From positions 1-33,487 of the forward strand of contig JAUNPJ010000042.1 in the NCBI GenBank assembly GCA_030536755.1: a stretch of DNA of 33,487 nt, given 5' to 3'. The translations under genes were made by a program, and so were the position numbers. The notes under the pieces are model-generated. The model was not told where the DNA came from. It worked only from the letters and a program-made list of their open reading frames with translations, and did not search any database. Below are positions 127 through 32,600 of this stretch, one piece after another. Source of the DNA: Eubacteriales bacterium. GTDB taxonomy: Bacteria > Bacillota > Clostridia > Lachnospirales > Lachnospiraceae. The first letter of the stretch is position 1, and every line of letters starts with the position of its first letter.

Positions 127-322
127 ATTGCTGTGGCATTGATAGCAATGAAGCGTGAGGTTGCTGCCAATCTGGCAGGTTTTCCGTGGAGCGAATGTCA
201 AGTTAGGAAACTGACGACAAGTCACTGTACAAAGTAAATATCCATTAACATTGGAAACGGATGGAAATTACGTGTGAAGTTCTGAGACACACACGGGAAT
301 GTGTACAGTCACCGCTTGTCGT
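127..322 (+). promoter_or_regulatory. Structured 5' leader of the S10 operon (candidate r-protein leader)
   Basis: The 240 bases between the upstream terminator and rpsJ hold no ORF but many helices. ATTGCT (127-132) pairs with AGCAAT (144-149), and CTGCCA (164-169) pairs with TGGCAG (173-178). A long-range helix pairs ACGACAAG and ACTGTACA (214-231) with TGTACAGT and CTTGTCGT (302-322), interrupted by an internal loop. It encloses CGTGTG (271-276) paired with CACACG (290-295). S10 operons in other bacteria are autoregulated through such leaders, for example by L4. That this is one is inference from position and structure. I found no convincing promoter inside the region. Confidence 0.5.
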
Positions 323-13246: not shown

Positions 13247-13373
13247 AGTACGAACCACCAGGCGGTGTTGTTCGACTGTTAAAATAAACATACCAAATAA
13301 ATCCGCCTAATACCGAGCAGAATCGGAAAGGCTGCGATCAGGCAGCTGGGTGTGGAAGAGCACCCCAATTAGG
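13247..13373 (+). promoter_or_regulatory. Structured leader of rpsM-rpsK-rpsD-rpoA-rplQ (candidate S4-type leader)
   Basis: The 349-base gap between rpmJ and rpsM contains a strong hairpin: AGT, CGAAC and CACC (13247-13259) pair with GGTG, GTTCG and ACT (13264-13277). A multibranch unit follows. CCTAAT (13306-13311) pairs with ATTAGG (13368-13373) and encloses CCGA/TCGG (13313-13326), GCTGC/GCAGC (13331-13346) and GGGTG/CACCC (13348-13365). Alpha operons encoding S4 are autoregulated through leaders in several phyla, and S4-type leaders have been described in Clostridia. The assignment is inference. Confidence 0.5.
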
Positions 13374-17558: not shown

Positions 17559-17587
17559 TTGTCTTATAAATATCATTTTTATATAAT
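17559..17587 (+). promoter_or_regulatory. Sigma-A type promoter for the LytTR gene
   Basis: TTGTCT (17559-17564) and TATAAT (17582-17587) are separated by exactly 17 bases. Transcription would start near 17594, about 40 bases before the chosen start of the regulator gene. Confidence 0.75.
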
Positions 17588-17634
17588 AAGTTTATACTTG
17601 CCGATATGAAGCACTGATGGAGATGAGCGTTAGA

Positions 17635-18348
17635 ATGATACGAGTGGCGATTTGTCAAAAAAAGAAAGATATGCGCGAGTATATCAAAGCGGCATTGGAA
17701 ATGATGGAAGAAGAATTCCAGATGGTAGAGTTTTCGAATTTGGATGACCTCAAAGAAAATATGGATTCACAGTGGACTTCATTTGATATGGTTGTGCTGG
17801 GTACGTCTGTACAGAAAAAATGCGATGGACTTTCGTTTGCTGCAAAATTGCGCAGCAAAAACAAGTCAGCAGGCATTGTGTTTGTTACAGAAAGCAAAGC
17901 ATATTACGCCGAAGCATTTCGCGTGTTTGCGCTGGGATATCTGCTCTATCCGTTTGATGTAAAAGAATTGCAAAACTGTGTTTATTTCTTTAATCATAAG
18001 CCGTATGCAGAGCGGCGTTCCACATGGATGATCAAAGAAAAGGGGGCAAACTGGTGTCGGATTTACTGCCGTAATATTGTTTATATTGAGAGCCACAACA
18101 GAGATATTGTCATCCATCTCGAGGATGGGACGCAGAAACACAGCCGGATTAAGCTCAATGATGCGGAGAATCGGCTGGCTGCTTACAATTTTCTTCGATG
18201 CCATCAGAGCTATATCGTAAATCTGCATTTTGTGGATGAAATGCTCAATAACAGCTTTCATGTACAGTCCAGAGAGATACCGATCTCGCGCAAATATCAG
18301 AAGCAGGTAAAAGAAGCCTATTATAATTATATGTTCTCGAAAATGTAA
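17635..18348 (+). CDS. LytTR-family transcription factor with degenerate receiver domain
   Basis: The 237-residue protein has a receiver-like domain (residues 1-120) and a C-terminal LytTR DNA-binding domain (about 132-232; RIYCRNIVYIESHNRDIVIH, then FLRCHQSYIVNL and IPISRKYQKQVKEAY). The receiver fold is recognisable (MIRVAIC, FDMVVLG, IVFVTES, YLLYPFD) but key residues are changed. The acidic pair is Gln8-Lys9, the phospho-acceptor Asp is Gly56 and the conserved Lys is Tyr105; only Thr85 remains. It therefore cannot be phosphorylated in the usual way. The ATG at 17635 matches the domain start; ATGs at 17617 and 17623 are possible. It precedes a degenerate GHKL-like gene and the pilus genes and probably regulates them. 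Confidence 0.88.
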   Translation: MIRVAICQKKKDMREYIKAALEMMEEEFQMVEFSNLDDLKENMDSQWTSFDMVVLGTSVQKKCDGLSFAAKLRSKNKSAGIVFVTESKAYYAEAFRVFALGYLLYPFDVKELQNCVYFFNHKPYAERRSTWMIKEKGANWCRIYCRNIVYIESHNRDIVIHLEDGTQKHSRIKLNDAENRLAAYNFLRCHQSYIVNLHFVDEMLNNSFHVQSREIPISRKYQKQVKEAYYNYMFSKM

Positions 18349-18407: not shown

Positions 18408-18516
18408 TTTTCTATACCAAAAAAGTAAAAAAAACCGTCAAATTCTACCTTTTGATACTTTTTTCAAGCATTTGTGTTACACTACAGAAAAAATCAAAAG
18501 GGAAGGAGGGCGTGTG

Positions 18517-18975
18517 ATGTCTGCGAGGCCACAAAAGTTAGCGAAAAGCGGCGATGTGTCTTCTGTTATGCAGCGTTATTATACGGCCTATGAGGAAGTA
18601 AATGTGCTGTTGAATGCTTACGCACAGCAGGCAAAAGATGAGAAAATCCAGATGTCGATTGACGGCGGTGGATTTCGTGAGAATGTATTAAATGAAAGGT
18701 TTTGTGATATTCTTAGGTGTGCGATCACACAGGCTTTTGTAAACTGCAGAAAGATGAATCCGCCTCAGAAACGGTACATTAAGATTACAAGCATGGATGG
18801 GCAGCATAAAGTTTTTGTGAAGATTTCTTATCCTTGCGAGGAAGAAGAATGTGAGGATACGGATTGTCTGTCTCCGTCTATCAGCAGCGTGCTGAAACGC
18901 GCAGAAGGATATTTTAAAATACAGAACATAGAGATGGAGCAGGTCATTATGATTGCTGTTCCTTATGAAACATAG
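18517..18975 (+). CDS. Soluble protein resembling a degenerate GHKL ATPase domain
   Basis: The 152-residue protein has no signal or membrane segment. Residues about 28-105 align by eye with the ATPase domain of LytTR-partner (AgrC-like, HATPase_c_5) kinases: VLLNAYAQQAKDEKIQMSI, FCDILRCAITQAFVNC and KRYIKITSMDGQHKVFVKIS. The N-box residues are replaced: Asn by Cys68, Asp by Thr71 and Asn by Gln72. No glycine-rich ATP lid is visible; an acidic, Cys-rich stretch (CEEEECEDTDC) takes its place. It should not bind ATP normally. GGAAGGAGGG precedes the ATG at 18517. It lies between the LytTR gene and pilB, so a regulatory partner role is plausible. The assignment rests on recalled family patterns. 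Confidence 0.55.
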   Translation: MSARPQKLAKSGDVSSVMQRYYTAYEEVNVLLNAYAQQAKDEKIQMSIDGGGFRENVLNERFCDILRCAITQAFVNCRKMNPPQKRYIKITSMDGQHKVFVKISYPCEEEECEDTDCLSPSISSVLKRAEGYFKIQNIEMEQVIMIAVPYET

Positions 18976-19005: not shown

Positions 19006-20688
19006 ATGAAATATAAGCGTTTGGGTGACCTGCTCATTTCGGTAGGCCTCATCAACGAAGACCAATTAAATCAGGCACTGCAGATTCAGAAAACCTGCAG
19101 GGATCGTCTTGGAAAAGTACTCATTGACAATGGATTCATCACAGAAGCGCAGCTGATCGAAGCTCTGCGTATGCAGCTTGGTATCGACTTTATCGATCTG
19201 ACATCTATTGTTATTCCGGCATCCATGGTAGAACAGCTGCCAAAAAATATTGCGAAAAAACATGGGGTTGTTCCTGTGAAAATGGAGAAAGACCGCCTTT
19301 ATCTTGCCATGAAAGACCCGCTGAATTTCATGGCGATTGAGGAAGTTCGTGCAGCCACCAGAAAACGTATCATTCCGATGATCGCCTCAGAAAATGCGGT
19401 GGACAGAGCGATTAATACGCTGTATGGAAATGAAGGTGCAGCCAGAGCCATGGCGCAGATGCGTCAGGAGGCCGGCTATGTGGAGGAAGCGCAGGAAAAA
19501 AATCAGGAAGAACTTACCGATGCGGCAAGCGCACCTACGGTACGTCTGGTAAATTCGATTATTGAACGTGCGGTCACAGAGGGAGCCAGTGATATCCATC
19601 TGGAGCCGGGAACGGGAGAGATGTCCATTCGAATGCGAATTGACGGCCGTCTGCATAAAATACTTGAAATTCCGCGGGATCTGCAGGATTCCGTTATCTC
19701 CCGTATGAAGATCATGGGAAATATGGACATTGCAGAGCGAAGGATTCCTCAGGATGGACGTGCGCAGATGAAGCTCAAAAGCAGAGATGTGGATCTGCGT
19801 CTTTCTACTCTGCCGACCATCTATGGAGAAAAAGTCGTAATCCGTATTCTCAACAGAGAGGCCTCCATGCTTGACCGGGCCGGAATCGGAATAACGGCGG
19901 AGGATTCTAAGAAATTTGACCGCCTGTTAAGCCATAACAGCGGTGTCATTCTCATTGTGGGACCGACCGGAAGCGGTAAGTCTTCTACCATGTACACGAT
20001 GATCCGGGAGCTGAACAAAGAAGAAGTCAATCTGATTACGCTGGAGGATCCGGTGGAATATCAGGTGGAAGGCATCAATCAGGTACAGATCAATGAAAAA
20101 ACGGGTATGACCTTTGCCAGCGGCCTTCGTGCTATTTTGCGCCAGGATCCGGATATCATCTGTGTAGGAGAGATCCGAGACGGCGAGACAGCAGAAATCG
20201 CCATGCGGGCAGCTATGACCGGTCATCTGGTTATTTCCACTCTTCACACAGAGGATGCAGTTTCTGCGATTGACCGTCTGCGTGATATGGGGGTGGAACC
20301 CTACCTGATTGCAGGTGGATTACGGGGGATCATTTCTCAGCGACTGGTGAGAAAAATCTGCAAAAGCTGCCGTGCACCATATCAGCCTGAGCAGGACAAA
20401 TGCGAAATACTTGGAATCAAAGAGGCAGAGAGCAAGACGTTTTATCACGGCAAAGGCTGTCCATTGTGTTTTCATTCCGGATACCGCGGACGAAGCGGTG
20501 TATTCGAAATCCTGATCATGAATGAAGAATTGCGGGAGTGCATTGTGGAGGAAAAGGACAAACGCGCACTGCGGCAGGCTGTCAAAAGTTCCGGTTTTGT
20601 ACCGATGGTGGAAAATGCCCGCCGATTGATTGAGAATGGAGTTACTACGGTAGAAGAAGTGTGCAGGACGATCAGCCGCACCGATTAA
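19006..20688 (+). CDS. pilB: Type IV pilus assembly / type II secretion ATPase PilB (GspE family)
   Basis: PilB is the cytoplasmic hexameric ATPase that powers pilus extension. The 560-residue protein has an N-terminal MshEN-type domain (about 1-150, RLGDLLISVGLINEDQLNQA), a linker, and the secretion ATPase core. Walker A GPTGSGKSS spans 319-327, followed by the Asp box LITLEDPVEYQVEGINQVQI, Walker B with DIICVGEIRDGETAEIA, and the His box ISTLHTEDA. A complete zinc site, Cys452/Cys455 and Cys485/Cys488, is typical of PilB. GGAGGA precedes the ATG. It is followed 17 bases later by pilT. Confidence 0.95.
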   Translation: MKYKRLGDLLISVGLINEDQLNQALQIQKTCRDRLGKVLIDNGFITEAQLIEALRMQLGIDFIDLTSIVIPASMVEQLPKNIAKKHGVVPVKMEKDRLYLAMKDPLNFMAIEEVRAATRKRIIPMIASENAVDRAINTLYGNEGAARAMAQMRQEAGYVEEAQEKNQEELTDAASAPTVRLVNSIIERAVTEGASDIHLEPGTGEMSIRMRIDGRLHKILEIPRDLQDSVISRMKIMGNMDIAERRIPQDGRAQMKLKSRDVDLRLSTLPTIYGEKVVIRILNREASMLDRAGIGITAEDSKKFDRLLSHNSGVILIVGPTGSGKSSTMYTMIRELNKEEVNLITLEDPVEYQVEGINQVQINEKTGMTFASGLRAILRQDPDIICVGEIRDGETAEIAMRAAMTGHLVISTLHTEDAVSAIDRLRDMGVEPYLIAGGLRGIISQRLVRKICKSCRAPYQPEQDKCEILGIKEAESKTFYHGKGCPLCFHSGYRGRSGVFEILIMNEELRECIVEEKDKRALRQAVKSSGFVPMVENARRLIENGVTTVEEVCRTISRTD

Positions 20689-20705: not shown

Positions 20706-21752
20706 ATGCATATCGAACAACTGATTCTATTGGCGAAAAAAATGGGCGCCTCTGATATTCATCTGGTAGCGGGGCTGGAACCCAAATGCCGTGTGGACGG
20801 CAAGCTCACCAGTATGAATCCGGAAAGGCTGACACATGAGCAGTGTGAAGAATATGCCAGAGAACTGGCAGGCAGCCGCTATCAAGACATAAAGGAGATA
20901 GGAGAGCTGGATCTGGCACAGACGATTGCAGATGAACGAGTCCGTATCAATCTGTTTCGGCAGCAGGGTCATGTATCTGCGGCACTGCGTATTCTCAGCA
21001 ATCGAATCCCGAAGCTGGAGGATCTGGGCCTTCCGCCGATTGTAAATCAGTTTCCGTCCTGGCAGAAAGGAATCATTCTGGTGACCGGGGAGACGGGAAG
21101 TGGAAAATCGACCACGCTGGCAGCGATTCTGGATCGTATCAATCACTCCAGAACAGATCATATCATTACGCTGGAGGATCCGGTGGAGTACATTTATGAG
21201 CCGGATCAGTGTGTCATCAATCAGAGAGAGGTTGGCAAAGATACAGAAAGCTACGATTTGGGCCTGCGTGCCATTTTGCGAGAGGATCCGGATGTCATCC
21301 TCATCGGAGAGATGCGAGATCTGAGCACGATTGAGACGGCATTGACGGCAGCGGAGACGGGACATCTGGTATTTGCAACACTGCATACCAATTCAGCGCC
21401 GGATGCCATTGACCGAATTGTCGGTGTTTTTCCGGCAGAACGCCAGCCGCAGATTCGCATTCAGTTATCCACGACGCTGAGAGCTGTGTTGGCGCAGCAG
21501 CTTCTGCCGAAGCGAAACAATCTCGGAAGAATCGCAGCCTGTGAGGTAATGGTGGTGACACCGGCAATCCGAAATCTCATCCGTGAGGGCAAAACGCCGC
21601 AGATGTTATCGGCGATGCTCAGTTCTGCTTCCGAGGGCAGCGTTACGATGGACAATTTCCTGATCAAGCTTCTGCGTGAGAAAAAAATATCACCGGAAGT
21701 GGCAGTGGAGGCAGCTTACGATAAGATTTATGTAAACAAACATACCATTTGA
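20706..21752 (+). CDS. pilT: Type IV pilus retraction ATPase PilT
   Basis: PilT powers pilus depolymerisation and twitching. The 348-residue protein has the N-terminal PAS-like domain (SDIHLVAGLEPKCRVDGKL), Walker A GETGSGKST (128-136), the Asp box ITLEDPVEYIYEPDQCVINQ, Walker B DPDVILIGEMRD, the His box FATLHTNSAPDAIDRIVGVF and the C-terminal AIRNLIREGKTPQM motif, which marks PilT rather than PilB. Its presence argues for a retractable pilus rather than a simple secretion pseudopilus. AAAGGAGAT precedes the ATG. Confidence 0.95.
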   Translation: MHIEQLILLAKKMGASDIHLVAGLEPKCRVDGKLTSMNPERLTHEQCEEYARELAGSRYQDIKEIGELDLAQTIADERVRINLFRQQGHVSAALRILSNRIPKLEDLGLPPIVNQFPSWQKGIILVTGETGSGKSTTLAAILDRINHSRTDHIITLEDPVEYIYEPDQCVINQREVGKDTESYDLGLRAILREDPDVILIGEMRDLSTIETALTAAETGHLVFATLHTNSAPDAIDRIVGVFPAERQPQIRIQLSTTLRAVLAQQLLPKRNNLGRIAACEVMVVTPAIRNLIREGKTPQMLSAMLSSASEGSVTMDNFLIKLLREKKISPEVAVEAAYDKIYVNKHTI

Positions 21753-21791: not shown

Positions 21792-23000
21792 TTGATTACT
21801 TATCAGTACAAGGCATTGTCGCCGGATGGCGCCAAAGTCAGCGGTGTGGTGGAAGCAATGGACGAATTTTCCGCTGTAGATCAGATCAAAGTCACCTGCC
21901 CGATTGTTCTGAAAATTGAACCGGTGAAGGAGAAATCCGGTCTTCTCACCAAGGAGATTGGCGGCAAAAAGATTGACACCAAGGCTTTGTCGGTCATGTG
22001 CTCCCAGTTTTCGATCATTCTGCAGTCAGGCGTCACCATTGCACAGGCTATGGAGATGATTTCCAGTCAGACACAGGATAAGCGGCTGCGGAAAACGCTT
22101 GAAAAATCAGCCGAGGATGTGGCACAGGGAAATGGCGTAGCAGTCAGTTTTGAGAAAAACTGTCCGGAGCTTCCGGCCACCTTTATTGAGACCATACGGG
22201 CAGGAGAATATTCCGGTACACTGGAGAACTCTTTTGCCACACTGGAAAAATATTATGAAAAGTCGTACAAGAACAAACAGAAGGTAAAACAGGCCATGAC
22301 GTATCCTATTTTCGTAGTCATCGTGGCAATTGTCGTGCTGGCCGTGGTCATGATCAAGGTAATTCCTACCATATCAGCCGTTTTTTCCGATCTGGGCGGA
22401 GATCTGCCCAAGATGACGCAGATGATGATACGTGTCTCGGAGTTTTTCCAGAGGAACTTCCTGTGGATGCTGCTGGTCTTGATTTTCCTGGTCATTGCAG
22501 GAAAGATTTACTGCAGTACAGAGAAGGGGCGCTATCAGTGGAATGGGCTGATGCTGAAAATACCGGTTCTTGGCAAGATCAATCAGCTCAATGGATGCAG
22601 CCAGTTTGCGAATACGATGACAGCCCTTCTGGAAGCAGGAATTTCCGTGGGGGATGCCCTGGAGATCACCGCCAAAGTCATGGACAATTATGTGCTCAGC
22701 GTTGAGACCGAAAAGATGGTCGGAAAGATTTCCGAAGGCTACCGACTGGGCGACTGTATGCGAAAATGCGACTATTATCCGACAACCTTGACGGAGATGT
22801 GTGCCATTGGAGAAAATACAGGAGAATTGGAACACACGCTGGAGACGATTGCTACCTACTACGACAACGAGGCCGACCACGCAACCAAACAGGCGATCAG
22901 CAAGCTGGAACCTACAATTATGGTATTCCTGGCAATCTTTGCCGGATTTATCGTCATTTCCATTTATTTGCCAATGTTTACCATGTATGGTATGATGTAA
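21792..23000 (+). CDS. pilC: Type IV pilus inner-membrane platform protein PilC (GspF family)
   Basis: PilC is the polytopic platform that couples the ATPases to pilin assembly. The 402-residue protein opens ITYQYKALSPDGAKVSGVVE and has two T2SSF domains (about 68-191 and 271-394; LSVMCSQFSIILQSGVTIAQ and CSQFANTMTALLEAGISVGD). Three hydrophobic segments lie near residues 170-195, 220-240 and 375-400. The start is TTG at 21792 after AAAGGGGG, the only suitably spaced codon. Confidence 0.94.
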   Translation: MITYQYKALSPDGAKVSGVVEAMDEFSAVDQIKVTCPIVLKIEPVKEKSGLLTKEIGGKKIDTKALSVMCSQFSIILQSGVTIAQAMEMISSQTQDKRLRKTLEKSAEDVAQGNGVAVSFEKNCPELPATFIETIRAGEYSGTLENSFATLEKYYEKSYKNKQKVKQAMTYPIFVVIVAIVVLAVVMIKVIPTISAVFSDLGGDLPKMTQMMIRVSEFFQRNFLWMLLVLIFLVIAGKIYCSTEKGRYQWNGLMLKIPVLGKINQLNGCSQFANTMTALLEAGISVGDALEITAKVMDNYVLSVETEKMVGKISEGYRLGDCMRKCDYYPTTLTEMCAIGENTGELEHTLETIATYYDNEADHATKQAISKLEPTIMVFLAIFAGFIVISIYLPMFTMYGMM

Positions 23001-23062
23001 GTATGGTTTCGGGAGAGTCCGTAAGCCGGTACACTAGGCTCTCTTGATATAGAAACAAGGTA

Positions 23063-23102
23063 TCTGTTCGGTACATAAGATTCCATAAAGTTATGGAACA
23101 GA
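23063..23102 (+). promoter_or_regulatory. Overlapping alternative hairpins upstream of the pilin gene
   Basis: TTCCATAA (23081-23088) pairs with TTATGGAA (23091-23098). TCTGTTC (23063-23069) pairs with GAACAGA (23096-23102). The two helices share bases 23096-23098, so they compete or stack. Another stem, GAGAG..CTCTC, lies near 23013-23043. Such structures could protect the pilin message or regulate it. There is no T tract and no promoter between pilC and the pilin gene. Confidence 0.4.
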
Positions 23103-23152
23103 TGCAAAACGAATTCAAAAGAAAAATTTATTGAAGGAGGAAACAAAAAAAC

Positions 23153-23647
23153 ATGAACACTTTGAAGAAAAAAATGAACAAAAAAGGCTTTACGCTGGCG
23201 GAGCTGCTGATTGTAGTAGCGATTATTGCAGTATTGGTTGCTATCAGCATTCCTATTTTCACTACGCAGTTGGAGAAGTCTAGAGAGGCAGTAGATGCTG
23301 CTAATATTCGTGCTGCTTATGCAGAGGTTGCTGCGGCTGCATTAACAGACAGTGCAACAACTAATGACTATTTCAAGGAAATTGAGATGAAACAGAGAAA
23401 GCAGGCATGGTCTAATGGCGCAAATGATTTTGCCCCTGAAATCCTTGCACCTGGTGCAACTTCCTCTACTGGTGCAACATTCCAGTCAACTCTTCCTAGT
23501 GAAACAACTATTGCAACTGGTGCTGATGATGCTACTTGTGCCGTAGTTTACCATCATGGTACAGCTACTACAGCTGCCTATTTTACTATTGAACATACTA
23601 CTCCAACAGCAGCAACTGGAGTTATTGATGTAGATACTTTAAATTAA
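23153..23647 (+). CDS. Type IV pilin-like protein (major pilin candidate)
   Basis: The 164-residue prepilin has a short basic leader, MNTLKKKMNKKG, and the class III signal. Cleavage is predicted between Gly12 and Phe13 of KKGFTLAELLIVVAIIAVL, with the essential Glu at mature position 5. The hydrophobic helix is followed by an alpha segment rich in Ala and a C-terminal half very rich in Thr, Ala and Ser. A single Cys occurs near residue 127, so no C-terminal disulfide loop is possible. GAAGGAGGA precedes the ATG. It closes the visible pilB-pilT-pilC-pilin cluster; PilD would have to be supplied from elsewhere. Confidence 0.9.
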   Translation: MNTLKKKMNKKGFTLAELLIVVAIIAVLVAISIPIFTTQLEKSREAVDAANIRAAYAEVAAAALTDSATTNDYFKEIEMKQRKQAWSNGANDFAPEILAPGATSSTGATFQSTLPSETTIATGADDATCAVVYHHGTATTAAYFTIEHTTPTAATGVIDVDTLN

Positions 23648-23918: not shown

Positions 23919-24039
23919 TTTCGTTTGCCGAGGGCATTTTTTGTCTTGCCAAACGATAATACTCTAGCCAAACGAAATTAAGGCCTCGACAAACGAAAAA
24001 AGCTCTAGTCAAACGAAATTATGATTATCGTTTGGCAAG
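23919..24039. repeat. Phased CAAACGA array bounded by a 16-bp inverted repeat
   Basis: CAAACGA occurs at 23950, 23969, 23990 and 24010 in direct orientation, spaced 19, 21 and 20 bases, and in inverted orientation (TCGTTTG) at 23921 and 24028. The first and last of the inner five lie in a perfect 16-bp inverted repeat, CTTGCCAAACGATAAT (23945-23960) with its complement at 24024-24039. Two inner units share CTCTAG(C/T)CAAACGAAATTA. The period is close to two helical turns. The pattern suggests a protein-binding array; no coding sequence explains it. Confidence 0.75.
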
Positions 24040-27819: not shown

Positions 27820-27907
27820 CTAGTACTTCATCCGGTTAGTAACAATACTTTACAGTGCTGAAAAAATTTGCTATACTCCATTAAAAACGGTATTGGAGGA
27901 CGCAGAT

Positions 27908-28360
27908 ATGCCACGCTACATTGTCACGCTGACAAACGATGAAATACAGGAGCTGAAAGCATTAATACAAAAAGGCGGAAAGGGTTACCGCATAAAGCAT
28001 GCGCAGATACTGTTAAAGTTGGACCAGAAGCCTGAAAACAAGGAATGGACATATGACCGCATCAAAGATGCGTATGGAGCCGCCCGTTCCACCATTGCAG
28101 GTATTGCGCAACGGTTTGTCATGGGAGGGATGGAGGCAGCCCTTGGGCGGAAGGTACAAGAAAACCGCCGTCGCAAGGTGACGGGCGATGTGGAAGCCCG
28201 GATATGTGCCATAGCCTGTTCGGAACCGCCGGAAGGAGCCTCACGCTGGACTATGCAGGCAATCGCGGATGAACTGATTCGCCTGGAAGTGGTCGATTAC
28301 ATTACGGACAGTACCGTCTGCGAGGTTATGAAAAAAACGAAATCAAGCCGTGGCTCGTAA
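27908..28360 (+). CDS. IS630-family transposase A, N-terminal frame (HTH)
   Basis: This frame encodes the DNA-binding half (150 residues, MPRYIVTLTNDEIQELKALI...). A helix-turn-helix region lies near residues 45-75 (WTYDRIKDAYGAARSTIAGI), followed by a linker and a second HTH-like part (SRWTMQAIADELIRLEV). The ATG at 27908 is 7 bases after GGAGGA. A run of seven A residues (28331-28337) near its end allows a -1 shift into the DDE frame, giving a fused protein of about 370 residues. Without the shift it ends at 28360. Confidence 0.85.
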   Translation: MPRYIVTLTNDEIQELKALIQKGGKGYRIKHAQILLKLDQKPENKEWTYDRIKDAYGAARSTIAGIAQRFVMGGMEAALGRKVQENRRRKVTGDVEARICAIACSEPPEGASRWTMQAIADELIRLEVVDYITDSTVCEVMKKTKSSRGS

Positions 28361-29022
28361 AGGAATGGTGCATTCCGGAAGCAGACGCCGAGTTCGTAGC
28401 GAAGATGGAGGACGTGCTGGAGGTATATCAGCGCCCGTATGACCCTCTCCGTCCTGTCGTCTACATAGATGAAACGAACAAACAGCTCATAAAGGAAACA
28501 CGTATTCCCTGTGAACCAGGCCAGCCTGAAAAAGTAGATTCCGTGTATGCCCGCAACGGTGTTGCAGATGTCTTCATGATTTCTGAACCCTTGGCAGGCA
28601 GGAGGGAAACGGTTGTGACACAGACCCGCACAGCATTGGATTTTGCAGAAATTCTCCGGTATACTTCCGACACCCTGTACCCACGGACGGAAAAAATAGT
28701 TCTTGTTACCGACAATCTAAATACCCATTCTCCAGCTTCATTATATAAGGCTTTCCCACCGGAAGAAGCACGCAGGCTTGCAGAACGCTTTGAATGGCAT
28801 TACACGCCAAAACATGGTAGCTGGCTGGACATGGCAGAGATAGAAATCGGCATCATGAGCCGCCAGGCCCTGGGGAAGCCACTGCCAGATTTGGAAAGCT
28901 TTAAACAACAGGTTCGTACATGGACTATCAGGCGTAATGCAGAATGTGCAAAAATCAACTGGCAGTTTAAGACGCAGGATGCACGAATTAAATTGGCCAG
29001 GTTGTATCCGGTTATAGTTTAG
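28336..29022 (+). CDS. IS630-family transposase A, catalytic frame (DDE), by -1 frameshift
   Basis: After a -1 slip on A7 the frame continues NEIKPWLVKEWCIPEADAEF and then the DDE domain. The three acidic positions are visible: Asp in VVYIDETNKQL, Asp in VLVTDNLNTH and Glu in HGSWLDMAEIEIG. A separate ATG at 28405 lies in this frame without a good ribosome binding site. The catalytic domain is intact to its end, LARLYPVIV, so the element may be active if frameshifting works. Confidence 0.85.
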   Translation, partial: NEIKPWLVKEWCIPEADAEFVAKMEDVLEVYQRPYDPLRPVVYIDETNKQLIKETRIPCEPGQPEKVDSVYARNGVADVFMISEPLAGRRETVVTQTRTALDFAEILRYTSDTLYPRTEKIVLVTDNLNTHSPASLYKAFPPEEARRLAERFEWHYTPKHGSWLDMAEIEIGIMSRQALGKPLPDLESFKQQVRTWTIRRNAECAKINWQFKTQDARIKLARLYPVIV

Positions 29023-29098
29023 AAACTAACCGGATACAGTACTAGTGTATCGGCAAGTTGATTTCTAAAGCAAAAATATTCTCAAGTCTGACCCATTT

Positions 29099-29779
29099 TC
29101 ATGAGTCAAACTTTGGATATAATGAACGAAGTTTTGTCCTTGCATCTTCTGCTGTGAAATGCCAATTGACACTCCTGCGATTTCGGTTTCGTCTGCTTTC
29201 CCATGCAGAAAGTTCTTCTGATAATTTCTGGATATCATCAATCCTTCGGTCAAGACATTGTCTGGTCATAGCATTTAATTCAATTTCTGCGATATTTAAC
29301 CAGCTCCCATGTTTTGGTGTATAGTGGATTTCGAGACGATTTGCCAGTGCAGCGGCTTCCGGGGCAGGAAAACTCTGATATAAAGATGCTTTGGTATGTG
29401 TATTCAGATTATCCATGACAAGAATTATTTTTTCATAATCTGGATAAACTTCTGTGAGAAGATAACGGATTTCTTCCGCCCAGTCCTGTCTGGTCCTCTG
29501 CCGACGGACGCTGACATGGCGGTAATCCGCAAGTGTCTCTGTGAATACAAAAATACTGCAGGTTCCACAACGGATATATTCAGAATCCAGCTTTTTGACA
29601 TCTCCGGGTTTGATTTCCAGAGGTTCCCTTGCTTCTCCGAGAAGTTGATATGGTTTTTCGTCCATGCAAACAACCGGAAGATTTTTGTTATACGGAAGAG
29701 AATATATATGAAGGATGTCCTCCATACAGGCCACAAATTCGGCATTTTCTTTGGGTGGGATACACCAGTATTCGTTCAT
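29099..29779 (-). CDS. IS630-family transposase B, catalytic frame (DDE), by -1 frameshift
   Basis: The frame carries the DDE domain: Asp in VVCMDEKPYQLLGEAREPLE, Asp in ILVMDNLNTHTKASLYQSF and Glu in HGSWLNIAEIELNAMTRQ. It ends RSLYPKFDS. The ATG at 29779 overlaps the stop of the upstream frame (ATGA). A -1 shift on the eight-A run (T8 at 29796-29803 on the plus strand) would read NELKPHMNEYWCIPPKENAE and fuse both halves. All catalytic residues are intact. Confidence 0.86.
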   Translation of the reverse strand: MNEYWCIPPKENAEFVACMEDILHIYSLPYNKNLPVVCMDEKPYQLLGEAREPLEIKPGDVKKLDSEYIRCGTCSIFVFTETLADYRHVSVRRQRTRQDWAEEIRYLLTEVYPDYEKIILVMDNLNTHTKASLYQSFPAPEAAALANRLEIHYTPKHGSWLNIAEIELNAMTRQCLDRRIDDIQKLSEELSAWESRRNRNRRSVNWHFTAEDARTKLRSLYPKFDS

Positions 29780-30240
29780 ATGAGGCTTAAGTTCATTTTT
29801 TTTAACATCACACGAATGGTTTCCTTACTGACTGGTTCAGCTACGCCCTTTTTGTTCACTTCTTCTGTCAGCAGTTCCAGTGTCCAGCGGGCATGACCTT
29901 CTGGCGCTTCGCCGCATGCAAGTTGGATCACATGGGCCTCCAGTTCACCATTTGTTTTACGTGGACGAACAGACGAAGGATTAAAATGATGAGAGATCGC
30001 AGAATCCAGTCCGTTCTGGGAATAATTACGTGCCGTTGCTACAATCGTAGTTACGGTTGTGTTTAATGCGGAAGCAATCTGTCTGTGGCTTAAATTGGAA
30101 TTGTTTTTATTATCCAGAGCCAGAAGAATCAAAACACGTTTGGAAACACGTGCAGACAGAGTATTATCGTTGCTCATTGCCAAAAGTTTTTCTTTCTCTT
30201 CCTGACTGAGAGAAACTGTATATTGAGTATGACGTCCCAT
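29776..30240 (-). CDS. IS630-family transposase B, N-terminal frame (HTH)
   Basis: The 154-residue frame starts MGRHTQYTVSLSQEEKEKLL and has a helix-turn-helix near residues 50-75 (LSHRQIASALNTTVTTIVAT), then SVRPRKTNGELEAHVIQLAC and a second HTH-like part. It ends MLKKMNLSLI just after the A8 slip site. GGAAG precedes the ATG on the minus strand. Confidence 0.86.
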   Translation of the reverse strand: MGRHTQYTVSLSQEEKEKLLAMSNDNTLSARVSKRVLILLALDNKNNSNLSHRQIASALNTTVTTIVATARNYSQNGLDSAISHHFNPSSVRPRKTNGELEAHVIQLACGEAPEGHARWTLELLTEEVNKKGVAEPVSKETIRVMLKKMNLSLI

Positions 30241-30503
30241 ATAAATTTCCTTCTTTCGTAAATGGATTTGGATATATATATGGTACCATACTTTGCTTTA
30301 GAAATCAATTTGTCAGTACACTAGTGTCCATACTTTTTACAGCCTTGTAGATGAGATTGATGTATTTTGCTTTGATGAAATGTACAGTTTGTGACGAAAG
30401 TTTAATAAAACAGAGGCAGGTTTGAGAGGTATTTTTTGTTAGGAAGTTCAGGTTATAGGTGAAAAAAGATAATACTATAGAAAACAATATAAGGAGAACA
30501 GTT

Positions 30504-32600
30504 ATGAAAGATAAGTTAAAACGACTAATAGCACTAGTAATATCATGTATAATGTGCGTTGGATTATTGCAAACAACTGTATTGGCAACAGAAATTACAG
30601 AATGGAAAGATGGAGCAATACCTTCAGGGTATATTATGGATGAAGAAGATGAGAACAATAAAGATATTGTTTTTTTTGATGGTACAGAGAGTGAAGCTGT
30701 AACGAAAACAGAAGATATAGAATCACTTGAAATGGATATAGACGAGTTTACGTCTGGCGATGAGTTGGACAATTCGACTTCTTTTTTTTCTGGAACAGTA
30801 GAAGTGCCTACTGTTGTACCAGCAGATGCGGTACTTTCTTTTTCAGAGAGTTATTCAGGGGCGGTAGGAGAGCAAGTTGCGATAACTGCAACTTTTGTAT
30901 GTACAGAAGCACCTGATAGTTTTGTGTGGGAGTGCAATGAAGAAAACGCAATTACATTTAGTCAAACTAGTGTGATGGGACCTGTTGAAACAGGGGTGGA
31001 AAATACATATTGGGTTTCTACTATGCTAACAGGGGTAAAAGAAGGAAATTACACGGTTACACTTACTGTAGGTGGAAGTATCGCAAAAACAGTATCGGCT
31101 AGTACAAATTATACCGTAACAAAAGCATTAACAACTAGATATATTGCATTGGTTTTAGATGCATCAGGCAGTATGTCAGGGAATCCGGCAAAAGAACAAA
31201 AAAAAGCTGCTAAAAAATTTTGTGCATCTGTTTTGAATTCTACTGGTATTAATTATATTGCAATTGTTAAGTTAGGCTATTCTGCATCTGTTGGATGTGG
31301 ATTCACTAATGATCTGAGTATTTTGACAAACTATATTGATTCTTTTCCTGCTAATGACTCAACAAATACAAATCACGCATTAGAAATTGCGGGAAATCTT
31401 CTTGATAATATTTCAGATACTAGTAATAACTTGTCGAAAAATATAGTTATCTGTTCAGATGGTCTTCCGCAAAGTGGAAGTTCTACAGTAAATGGTCCAT
31501 ATACTAGTCAGGATATATCTTATTATTTTTCATATGCGAATTCTTGTTATAATACGGCAGTTGCTTTGAAAGAAAAAGGGTATTTGATTTATTCACTTGG
31601 GTTTTTTCATAGTTTATATGGTACTGAATTAACTTTTGCAAAGAGATTTATGTCTGATTTAGCGAGCGAAAAATGTTATTATGAAGTCGTAAACGCGGAT
31701 GATTTGGAGTTTACTTTTGGAGAAATTGCAGAGGATATTACTGTAGAACCTATATCTATTGATATTAGTGATATTAAGAAAATTTCTGAAACAGATAAAG
31801 AAATCACATACTCGATTCATGTTCAAATTACAAATAATAGCAAAAGTGTAGCACTTACAAATGTGTTTGTGAATATTGATGAAGGTGACAATGCTTCAAT
31901 TGTGGAAAGTGAATGGAAGCAGTCAGTGGCTACTTTAGGAGTAAATGAATCTCAAGAGTTTATCTGGAATATTAAGATTGATAGAACCAAATATTATGAT
32001 GGAGGATCACACATTTTCACTGTTTATGCAGGATCTGATCAGACTGTGACAGCTTCAAAACAAGAGTCTATAGCTCTGGAAGCAGTGAATGAACGGAGTA
32101 ATGAATTAAAATTTGAAACGGATGTTTGGAATTTTCACAATTTTTCAGAAAATAAAATTGATGAAACCCATAGAGAGCCTCATCCGATTACAGATAATGA
32201 TAAGAATGCTTTTTTGTCCGGATTAAGTGCCTCGGATAGGGCAGCAGTCTCAGAAATGTTCTCAAATGGTTCTAATGGTCATTGCTTTGGCATGGCGTTG
32301 ACATCTATTTTGAATAAAATGAATATATTTCACATTTCAGACTATTCAGATGTAAGTTCTTTAAGAGAAGCTAATTTAAATGACAGAATATGGTCTATAC
32401 TTTGCTATTATCAAAATCTCCAAAACTTCAAGAGTTATTCGAGTATAGAAACGGATTTCATAGAAAATTATTCAACAGAAGAACAGATATCTATTTTGCA
32501 TTCAAAGGCAGATGCAGTAAAAGAAGGAGGATGTCCAGTCTTATTTACATTTGGCTGTAATGGTTGGGGGGGGACATGCAGTAGTGGCATATGCATCTGA
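30504..32600 (+). CDS. Secreted Ig-like / von Willebrand A / cysteine-peptidase-like protein, frame interrupted at G8
   Basis: The first frame gives 698 residues from the ATG at 30504, after AAGGAG. A signal peptide MKDKLKRLIALVISCIMCVG... ends near TVLA-TE (about residue 29). An acidic segment and an Ig-like region (about 90-210) follow. A vWA domain starts near residue 213 with a MIDAS motif DASGS at Asp219, and a second site is IVICSDGLPQSG. After a CARDB-like region (about 430-530) comes NGHCFGMALTSIL, with Cys594 as a candidate peptidase nucleophile. The frame stops at 32600, shortly after a run of eight G (32566-32573). In the frame one base away, the sequence continues GGHAVVAY. The native protein almost certainly reads on, so this is a switched-off or broken form. 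The substrate is unknown; adhesion or surface proteolysis is plausible. Confidence 0.75.
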   Translation: MKDKLKRLIALVISCIMCVGLLQTTVLATEITEWKDGAIPSGYIMDEEDENNKDIVFFDGTESEAVTKTEDIESLEMDIDEFTSGDELDNSTSFFSGTVEVPTVVPADAVLSFSESYSGAVGEQVAITATFVCTEAPDSFVWECNEENAITFSQTSVMGPVETGVENTYWVSTMLTGVKEGNYTVTLTVGGSIAKTVSASTNYTVTKALTTRYIALVLDASGSMSGNPAKEQKKAAKKFCASVLNSTGINYIAIVKLGYSASVGCGFTNDLSILTNYIDSFPANDSTNTNHALEIAGNLLDNISDTSNNLSKNIVICSDGLPQSGSSTVNGPYTSQDISYYFSYANSCYNTAVALKEKGYLIYSLGFFHSLYGTELTFAKRFMSDLASEKCYYEVVNADDLEFTFGEIAEDITVEPISIDISDIKKISETDKEITYSIHVQITNNSKSVALTNVFVNIDEGDNASIVESEWKQSVATLGVNESQEFIWNIKIDRTKYYDGGSHIFTVYAGSDQTVTASKQESIALEAVNERSNELKFETDVWNFHNFSENKIDETHREPHPITDNDKNAFLSGLSASDRAAVSEMFSNGSNGHCFGMALTSILNKMNIFHISDYSDVSSLREANLNDRIWSILCYYQNLQNFKSYSSIETDFIENYSTEEQISILHSKADAVKEGGCPVLFTFGCNGWGGTCSSGICI
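32566..32573 (+). other. G8 homopolymer tract at the frame break
   Basis: Eight consecutive G residues lie in an AT-rich gene. With seven (or ten) G residues the upstream and downstream frames join as GWGGHAVVAY. It is a candidate slipped-strand phase-variation tract, or a site of sequencing error or mutation. Confidence 0.6.

Follow-up and report, generated by a model that had tools for sequence, protein, structure and literature searches.

Among signalling proteins, pseudo-receivers and pseudo-kinases have each been described singly, and standalone GHKL domains serve as protein-binding regulators with feedback in SpoIIAB and RsbW, which bind ATP, phosphorylate their partner and bind sigma factors. 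In systems of the AgrC/AgrA type, an HATPase_c_5 kinase is combined with a LytTR regulator. In AlgZ(FimS)-AlgR of Pseudomonas aeruginosa, according to the part of the published account drawn on here, a LytTR-type regulator together with an atypical kinase without the usual motifs controls type IV pilus genes, with AlgZ being a predicted membrane protein and AlgR carrying an Asp54 that, when changed in the D54N form, leads to loss of twitching (PMC4064291). Aspartate-less receivers (ALR) such as RitR are also described, in which the Asp is absent and the output domain kept; their DNA-binding outputs are mainly of the OmpR and LuxR types, with LytTR/LytR not mentioned in the main text of that account (PMC4395418).

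The window, by which we mean the whole stretch of DNA analysed here (33,487 nucleotides from a Eubacteriales bacterium of the Lachnospiraceae; assembly GCA_030536755.1, contig JAUNPJ010000042.1), carries on its forward strand a gene for a LytTR regulator with a pseudo-receiver (17617..18348), assigned from Pfam, a residue table and its clade. Starting 168 bp 3' of it is a gene for a predicted standalone GHKL pseudo-ATPase (18517..18975, + strand; ATG at 18517, stop at 18975), which encodes a CA-only protein of 152 aa and has a good match to a ribosome site, GGAAGGAGG, just 5' of its ATG. We give about an even chance to the reading that this pair is a remodelled two-component system, now acting as a regulator with feedback that works without phosphate. 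Compared with the AgrC/AgrA type, the pair is alike in ATPase fold, LytTR output and, for some operons of the family, gene order, but it is without the membrane part, the DHp domain, the ATP-site residues and the phospho-Asp. With SpoIIAB/RsbW it shares the standalone GHKL regulator, but not the ATP binding, the partner phosphorylation or the sigma factors as targets. The nearest known parallel, as far as the consulted part of its account goes, is AlgZ(FimS)-AlgR, where twitching needs Asp54, whereas the pair here has lost both phosphate ends. Its LytTR protein is like the ALR in having a receiver without Asp and a retained output domain, and the pair is unlike them in that the ALR account, in its portions used here, gives no paired pseudo-kinase (PMC4395418). 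We found no such doubly dead LytTR-GHKL pair in the titles or abstract openings of the open-access literature, with the subscription literature lying mostly outside that search.

With regards to the family of the small protein, a Pfam scan of the single window sequence gave HATPase_c_5 at 14.3 bits (E 0.039), below the cut-off of 22, so that the window protein alone would not prove the family, and PDB sequence searches with the small protein gave no useful match. Searching 397 genomes of the same bacterial family with the window protein found two more standalone proteins, in G036 (31% identity) and G026 (28%), followed by eight weak matches; the reading frames of seven of these span 432-741 aa, and that of the eighth 234 aa. 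A profile built from four sequences (A3: window, G036, G026 and L045) gave, over the 397 genomes, members of the small family at 220-249 bits and the next matches from 41.7 bits (E 3.6e-10), with matches at E<=0.01 in 121 of the genomes. Thirteen of the 27 best non-family A3 loci (L050-L076) were read, and all 13 had the GHKL domain at the C-terminal end, the remaining loci being known by frame length alone (mostly 400-760 aa). Using 11 of those 13 as a kinase GHKL set (A6), hhalign aligned the small-protein profile with it at 98.7% over 138 columns, a comparison that is not fully independent because the kinase set was chosen with the same profile; controls having either side reversed gave 0.8% and 2.7%, and the LytTR profile gave 0.1%.

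An AlphaFold model of the small protein (4 sequences; pLDDT 73.1, pTM 0.71; residues 1-16 unreliable) had the secondary-structure order H-E-H-E-E-H-E-E, with Staphylococcus aureus AgrC (6e95) as its first Foldseek match (E 3.8e-7, TMq 0.68), and all 50 Foldseek matches listed were histidine kinases or kinase-like proteins. Model and Foldseek matches together give the small protein the CA fold of histidine kinases, and by descent and fold it belongs to GHKL/HATPase_c_5, of AgrC type. A membrane segment is not expected, since the most hydrophobic 19-mer averages only 0.82. A sequence-only reading of this DNA had described a soluble protein resembling the ATPase domain of AgrC-like kinases, and this agrees with the AgrC top match, the profile alignment and the lack of a membrane segment; the fold obtained was of HATPase type, and no unrelated fold was seen.

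The pair was found in five genomes, with the LytTR gene followed by the small gene in all five. At least three of the 397 same-family genomes have it, a fourth species (L045) came from a pattern scan of named genomes, and a fifth pair, found via its LytTR protein, lies in G488, which belongs to another family of the same order and came from a draw of 373 order genomes overlapping with the family draw. These counts are lower bounds, because no more than 7 or 9 first-look candidates were scored in each genome. The G488 small protein (L137) was spotted by position and matches A3 at 96.4% (E 1.3e-9), while L137 alone against the kinase profile gave 2.7%, which is no match. On the LytTR side, six proteins form one clade, which is present in 96% of bootstrap trees and has a support of 94/91, just below the usual 95; the small protein lies directly downstream in five of the six. 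The exception is L044 (10001-10714, genome G397), without an adjacent small protein; A3 gave only a long-frame, kinase-like match in G397, and the window PilB as query gave one partial match there, a Com-type ATPase by inspection. The linkage of LytTR and GHKL genes is thus conserved in five pairs, and an absence of linkage was not what was seen. The order of the genes in the pair is the same as in operons having an AgrC-like kinase after a LytTR gene, seen in three of six neighbourhoods read (L127, L128 and L129, the last judged by eye), these three having been chosen because both searches matched one contig; L130-L132 have a LytTR gene without an adjacent AgrC-like kinase.

Two side observations belong to these surveys. 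At L130 (3372-4169, genome G263), an Asp-to-Asn LytTR protein is encoded directly after rplQ and without a small gene, close to where the pair sits in the window, and a second Asp-less LytTR protein of G263 is found at L131 (2732-3454). Weak profile matches in frames of 173-184 aa (G134:C14:50014-50424, G153:C7:5693-5851 and G283:C119:6656-6850) may represent further standalone GHKL domains, or may reflect contig effects.

LytTR regulators use two half-sites close to the promoter, with a spacing of about 21 bp. In the gap between the LytTR gene and the small gene, cross-locus comparison placed two 9-bp half-sites, 21 bp from start to start, the upstream one being ACCAAAAAA (18416..18424, + strand) and the downstream one lying in GTCAAATTCTAC (18437..18448, + strand), with a putative -10 element, TACACT (18478..18483, + strand), following at 41 bp from where the second half-site starts. 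That distance is also 41 bp in L046, L047 and L137, and 42 bp in L045. In the window, the half-sites share only four of nine letters, so the status of the upstream one rests on the comparison between loci, and a repeat finder run on the window did not report the two. The repeat was first noticed by eye; a later block search over four gaps, run without that knowledge, returned the same block at 42.7 bits, compared with 34.9 +/- 1.0 in shuffles, of which none in 60 reached 42.7, the four gaps not being four independent draws since L045 and L047 are closely related, with 54% identity between their small proteins. In leave-one-out matrix scans of both strands, the own site ranked first at each of the four loci, and the whole site of the window, scored with the matrix from the other three loci, ranked first of 66,834 positions.

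Two further sites were spotted by eye prior to scoring. The site in the G488 gap, which was outside the matrix, ranked first of 24,960 positions, and when the -10 was scored too, none of 2000 shuffles reached it; as half-sites alone it was reached by 13 of 2000 and led its locus narrowly (11.9 vs 11.6). With the -10 counted, the second-best position at L013 (G026) was before the minor-pilin/pilB operon (0 of 2000 gap shuffles), falling to fourth, at 13.5, with half-sites alone; on these scores, a second copy of the site likely precedes the G026 pilus operon. Downstream of that second site, TTGAAA-17-TATAAT (11/12) lies upstream of the L046 minor pilins, and this plain promoter-like match could serve the operon without LytTR. 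An IUPAC form of the site had 4, 3, 2, 1 and 1 matches in G000, G026, G036, G398 and G397, and had none there when the pattern was reversed; the pair promoters account for 3 of these 11, the own site of G036 being off the pattern by one letter, and two of the other eight that were viewed (L082, L085) had no pilus gene seen within 3 kb. Paired half-sites of LytTR type were thus found at five small-gene promoters and one pilus promoter. We infer that this two-part site is a candidate LytTR operator, though it does not fit the AgrA consensus, and the putative LytTR-style site conserved in the small-gene promoter is what is new in this work.

Downstream of the small gene, all on the + strand, are pilB (19006..20688; Pfam T2SSE 4.2e-133, MshEN 5.8e-22) and, by inspection, genes for a pilT-like ATPase (20706..21752, with a partial match to pilB), a pilC-like platform protein (21792..23000) and a prepilin having the motif KGFTLAELL (23153..23647). 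The small gene and pilB are probably co-transcribed, since the 30 bp gap between them leaves little room for a promoter. Such closeness could mean that the small protein serves the pilus machine as a co-transcribed accessory, for example as a cytoplasmic binder of PilB or PilT, and does not act on LytTR; a type IV pilus gene is indeed the next gene after the pair in four of the five cases. In agreement with this, genus g37 has the pair in two of four genomes and a pilus-type PilB in the same two, and one of the two genomes searched from the genus of the window has pair and PilB and the other (G136) neither. Against it, the constant neighbour of the small gene is the LytTR gene, in five of five, and in G488 the pair has no pilus gene beside it and PilB was not detected at E<=1e-10, this being a draft genome of 94% completeness. 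PilB (E<=1e-80) is moreover present in 165 of the 397 family genomes, where the pair was found in at least three. We consider the accessory role unlikely, if worth serious attention.

The G488 case means that the pair is linked to pili in four of five cases and not always. Of the earlier proposal that it controls pili, a link to pili is supported by the four pairs that adjoin a pilus gene and by the conserved promoter site, but control of pili alone is not. No pair was seen by eye in the 1.5 kb 5' of 25 pilB loci (L097-L121, the best of the 165 genomes), among which L097 is from G026, whose pair lies farther upstream than the 1.5 kb read, and none was found in the 7 kb upstream of pilB in G162 (PilB 68% identical).

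As for the nucleotide site, codons 68-72 of the small gene (18718..18732, + strand, by alignment) cover the positions where the N-box has been lost. In a joint alignment with full-length kinases, Cys68, Thr71 and Gln72 fall in the N, D/E and N columns of the N-box, in the very places where they had been assigned from the sequence before. Neither N-box Asn is kept in any of the five pair proteins, and the acidic position is Glu in two (L003 and L137). The G1 region has an Asn that does not vary among the 11 aligned kinase GHKL domains; in the pair proteins it is Tyr in four and Phe in one, being Tyr105 in the window (18829..18831, + strand, by alignment). In the same joint alignment, the letters of HGxGL are substituted in the pair proteins and 11-14 ATP-lid columns are gapped. 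By sequence, the N-box Asn pair, the G1 Asn and the HGxGL motif with lid that a functional GHKL ATPase has are therefore missing. The pair proteins (140-159 aa) also have no conserved His, and the model has no helix pair ahead of the domain, that is no DHp domain and no phospho-His of a histidine kinase. With its ATP-site residues lost, the small protein is predicted to be a standalone pseudo-ATPase.

One could then ask if the pocket has been reshaped for another small molecule, making the small protein a ligand sensor for LytTR. The residues Y22, T23, Y25, Q96, K98, F100, K102, Y105 and E108, invariant in four of the five pair proteins, would agree with such a pocket, but L137 keeps only part of this set, and the aromatic residue at the G1 position, with the 11-14 gapped lid columns, suggests a filled or closed pocket. 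We hold a ligand sensor to be quite unlikely. Separately, a Cys/Glu-rich stretch had been noted in place of the lid; it exists, at residues 107-117 of the window protein only, and a role as metal or redox site was dropped, the stretch being absent from the four relatives and thus not conserved among the five proteins.

The LytTR regulator, whose length is 243 aa if it starts at 17617 and 237 aa if it starts at the ATG at 17635, matches Pfam LytTR at 1.6e-17 (positions 4-96 of 98) and Response_reg at 3.7e-10, and thus has the LytTR DNA-binding domain. Its receiver has Gly for the phospho-Asp, as the earlier description of a dead receiver next to the small protein had it. Across the six clade members, the position is G, S, A, S, N and N, so that the phospho-Asp is kept in none, with a basic residue within the acidic pair in all six and the KP lysine kept in three. 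The phospho-Asp is kept by 23 of 27 other LytTR matches from the same search; its loss alone is therefore not unheard of in this family. It is highly improbable, in our judgement, that signalling here is ordinary, with a distant kinase still phosphorylating LytTR and the small protein being a cut-down working kinase module. The LytTR and receiver folds that Pfam finds intact, the KP lysine in three clade members and the N-box Glu in two small proteins would fit with that, but the absent phospho-Asp and the basic residue in the acidic pair, both in six of six, and the small proteins lacking DHp and conserved His, speak against it.

In a comparison of four small genes (L137 left out), pN was 0.27-0.52 and pS 0.74-0.85, with silent sites near saturation, and the small protein is still under selection. 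That the gene is a decaying, functionless kinase remnant is scarcely credible, in spite of the lost ATP-site Asn residues and an identity of 23-29% to relatives, given that the frame is open in five of five genomes, amino-acid changes are far fewer than silent ones, the promoter site is conserved and the ribosome site is clear in three of the five genes (window, L045 and L047; weaker in L046 and L137).

We thus return to the remodelled, phosphate-free pair. The sequence-only reading had suggested a non-phosphorylating switch, and of that suggestion the fold, the loss of the ATP site and the linkage to an Asp-less partner, in five pairs, have stood up. Starting from what was computed, namely fold, residue losses, linkage, conserved site and gene order, we infer binding of the site by LytTR, transcription as an operon, contact between the two proteins and the sign of the feedback, as follows. 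The pair would descend from an ordinary LytTR regulator and an AgrC-type kinase and would no longer use phosphate; it probably regulates without it because both the kinase domain and the gene switch have lost that chemistry. The LytTR protein would be made from its own promoter and likely be always present, a possible sigma-70 promoter being TTGTCT-17-TATAAT (17559..17587, + strand; 10 of 12 consensus positions), where matches as good are no commoner than chance (4 in the region vs 4.4 in shuffles). Without phosphate, it would bind upstream of the small gene, at the two half-sites with their 21-bp spacing, and turn on that gene plus the pilus operon that follows. In this scheme the small protein, a kinase ATPase domain separated from the membrane and histidine domains and having an aromatic residue in place of the nucleotide-site Asn, would as a soluble partner bind the pseudo-receiver and feed back on LytTR activity; it is best placed as the feedback partner because it is made from what would be the target promoter of LytTR. 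The feedback would be damping rather than boosting by a slight preference, which is a guess. That both partners lost phosphate chemistry together, and that the shell of an ATPase fold became the feedback partner of a transcription factor inside its own regulon, is a proposal we would neither bet on nor bet against.

The pair matters for having its chemistry lost on both sides while being linked across two families of one order and sharing a promoter site. Being small, soluble and made up of two proteins, it offers a model of how regulation by signalling proteins may continue once phosphate transfer is gone, and it is a candidate regulator of type IV pili in the family of the window, with the frequency of PilB given above.

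Some further features were observed in the window and related loci. A c-di-GMP or other riboswitch before the pilins was considered and rejected, as an Rfam scan of the window, L045, L046 and L047 gave at gathering score only S10 and S4 leaders; these are S10-Clostridia and S4-Clostridia, known ribosomal protein leaders, at window 140-220 and 13326-13373. The leaders of the prepilin genes (window 23040-23135; L045 11420-11500; L047 11380-11480) share TGCAAA(A/G)C near stems that differ in letters, a stretch that has no Rfam match, L045 11340-11560 giving none at E<=1, and that may be an undescribed RNA element. Repeats similar to CAAACGAAA, some of them inverted, are clustered 3' of the prepilin gene at window 23940-24030. 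Beyond the pilus locus, inspection revealed two convergent split transposase-like gene pairs (27893-30240) and, at 30459-32600, a gene for a secreted-looking protein of 713 aa having a von Willebrand A-like stretch.
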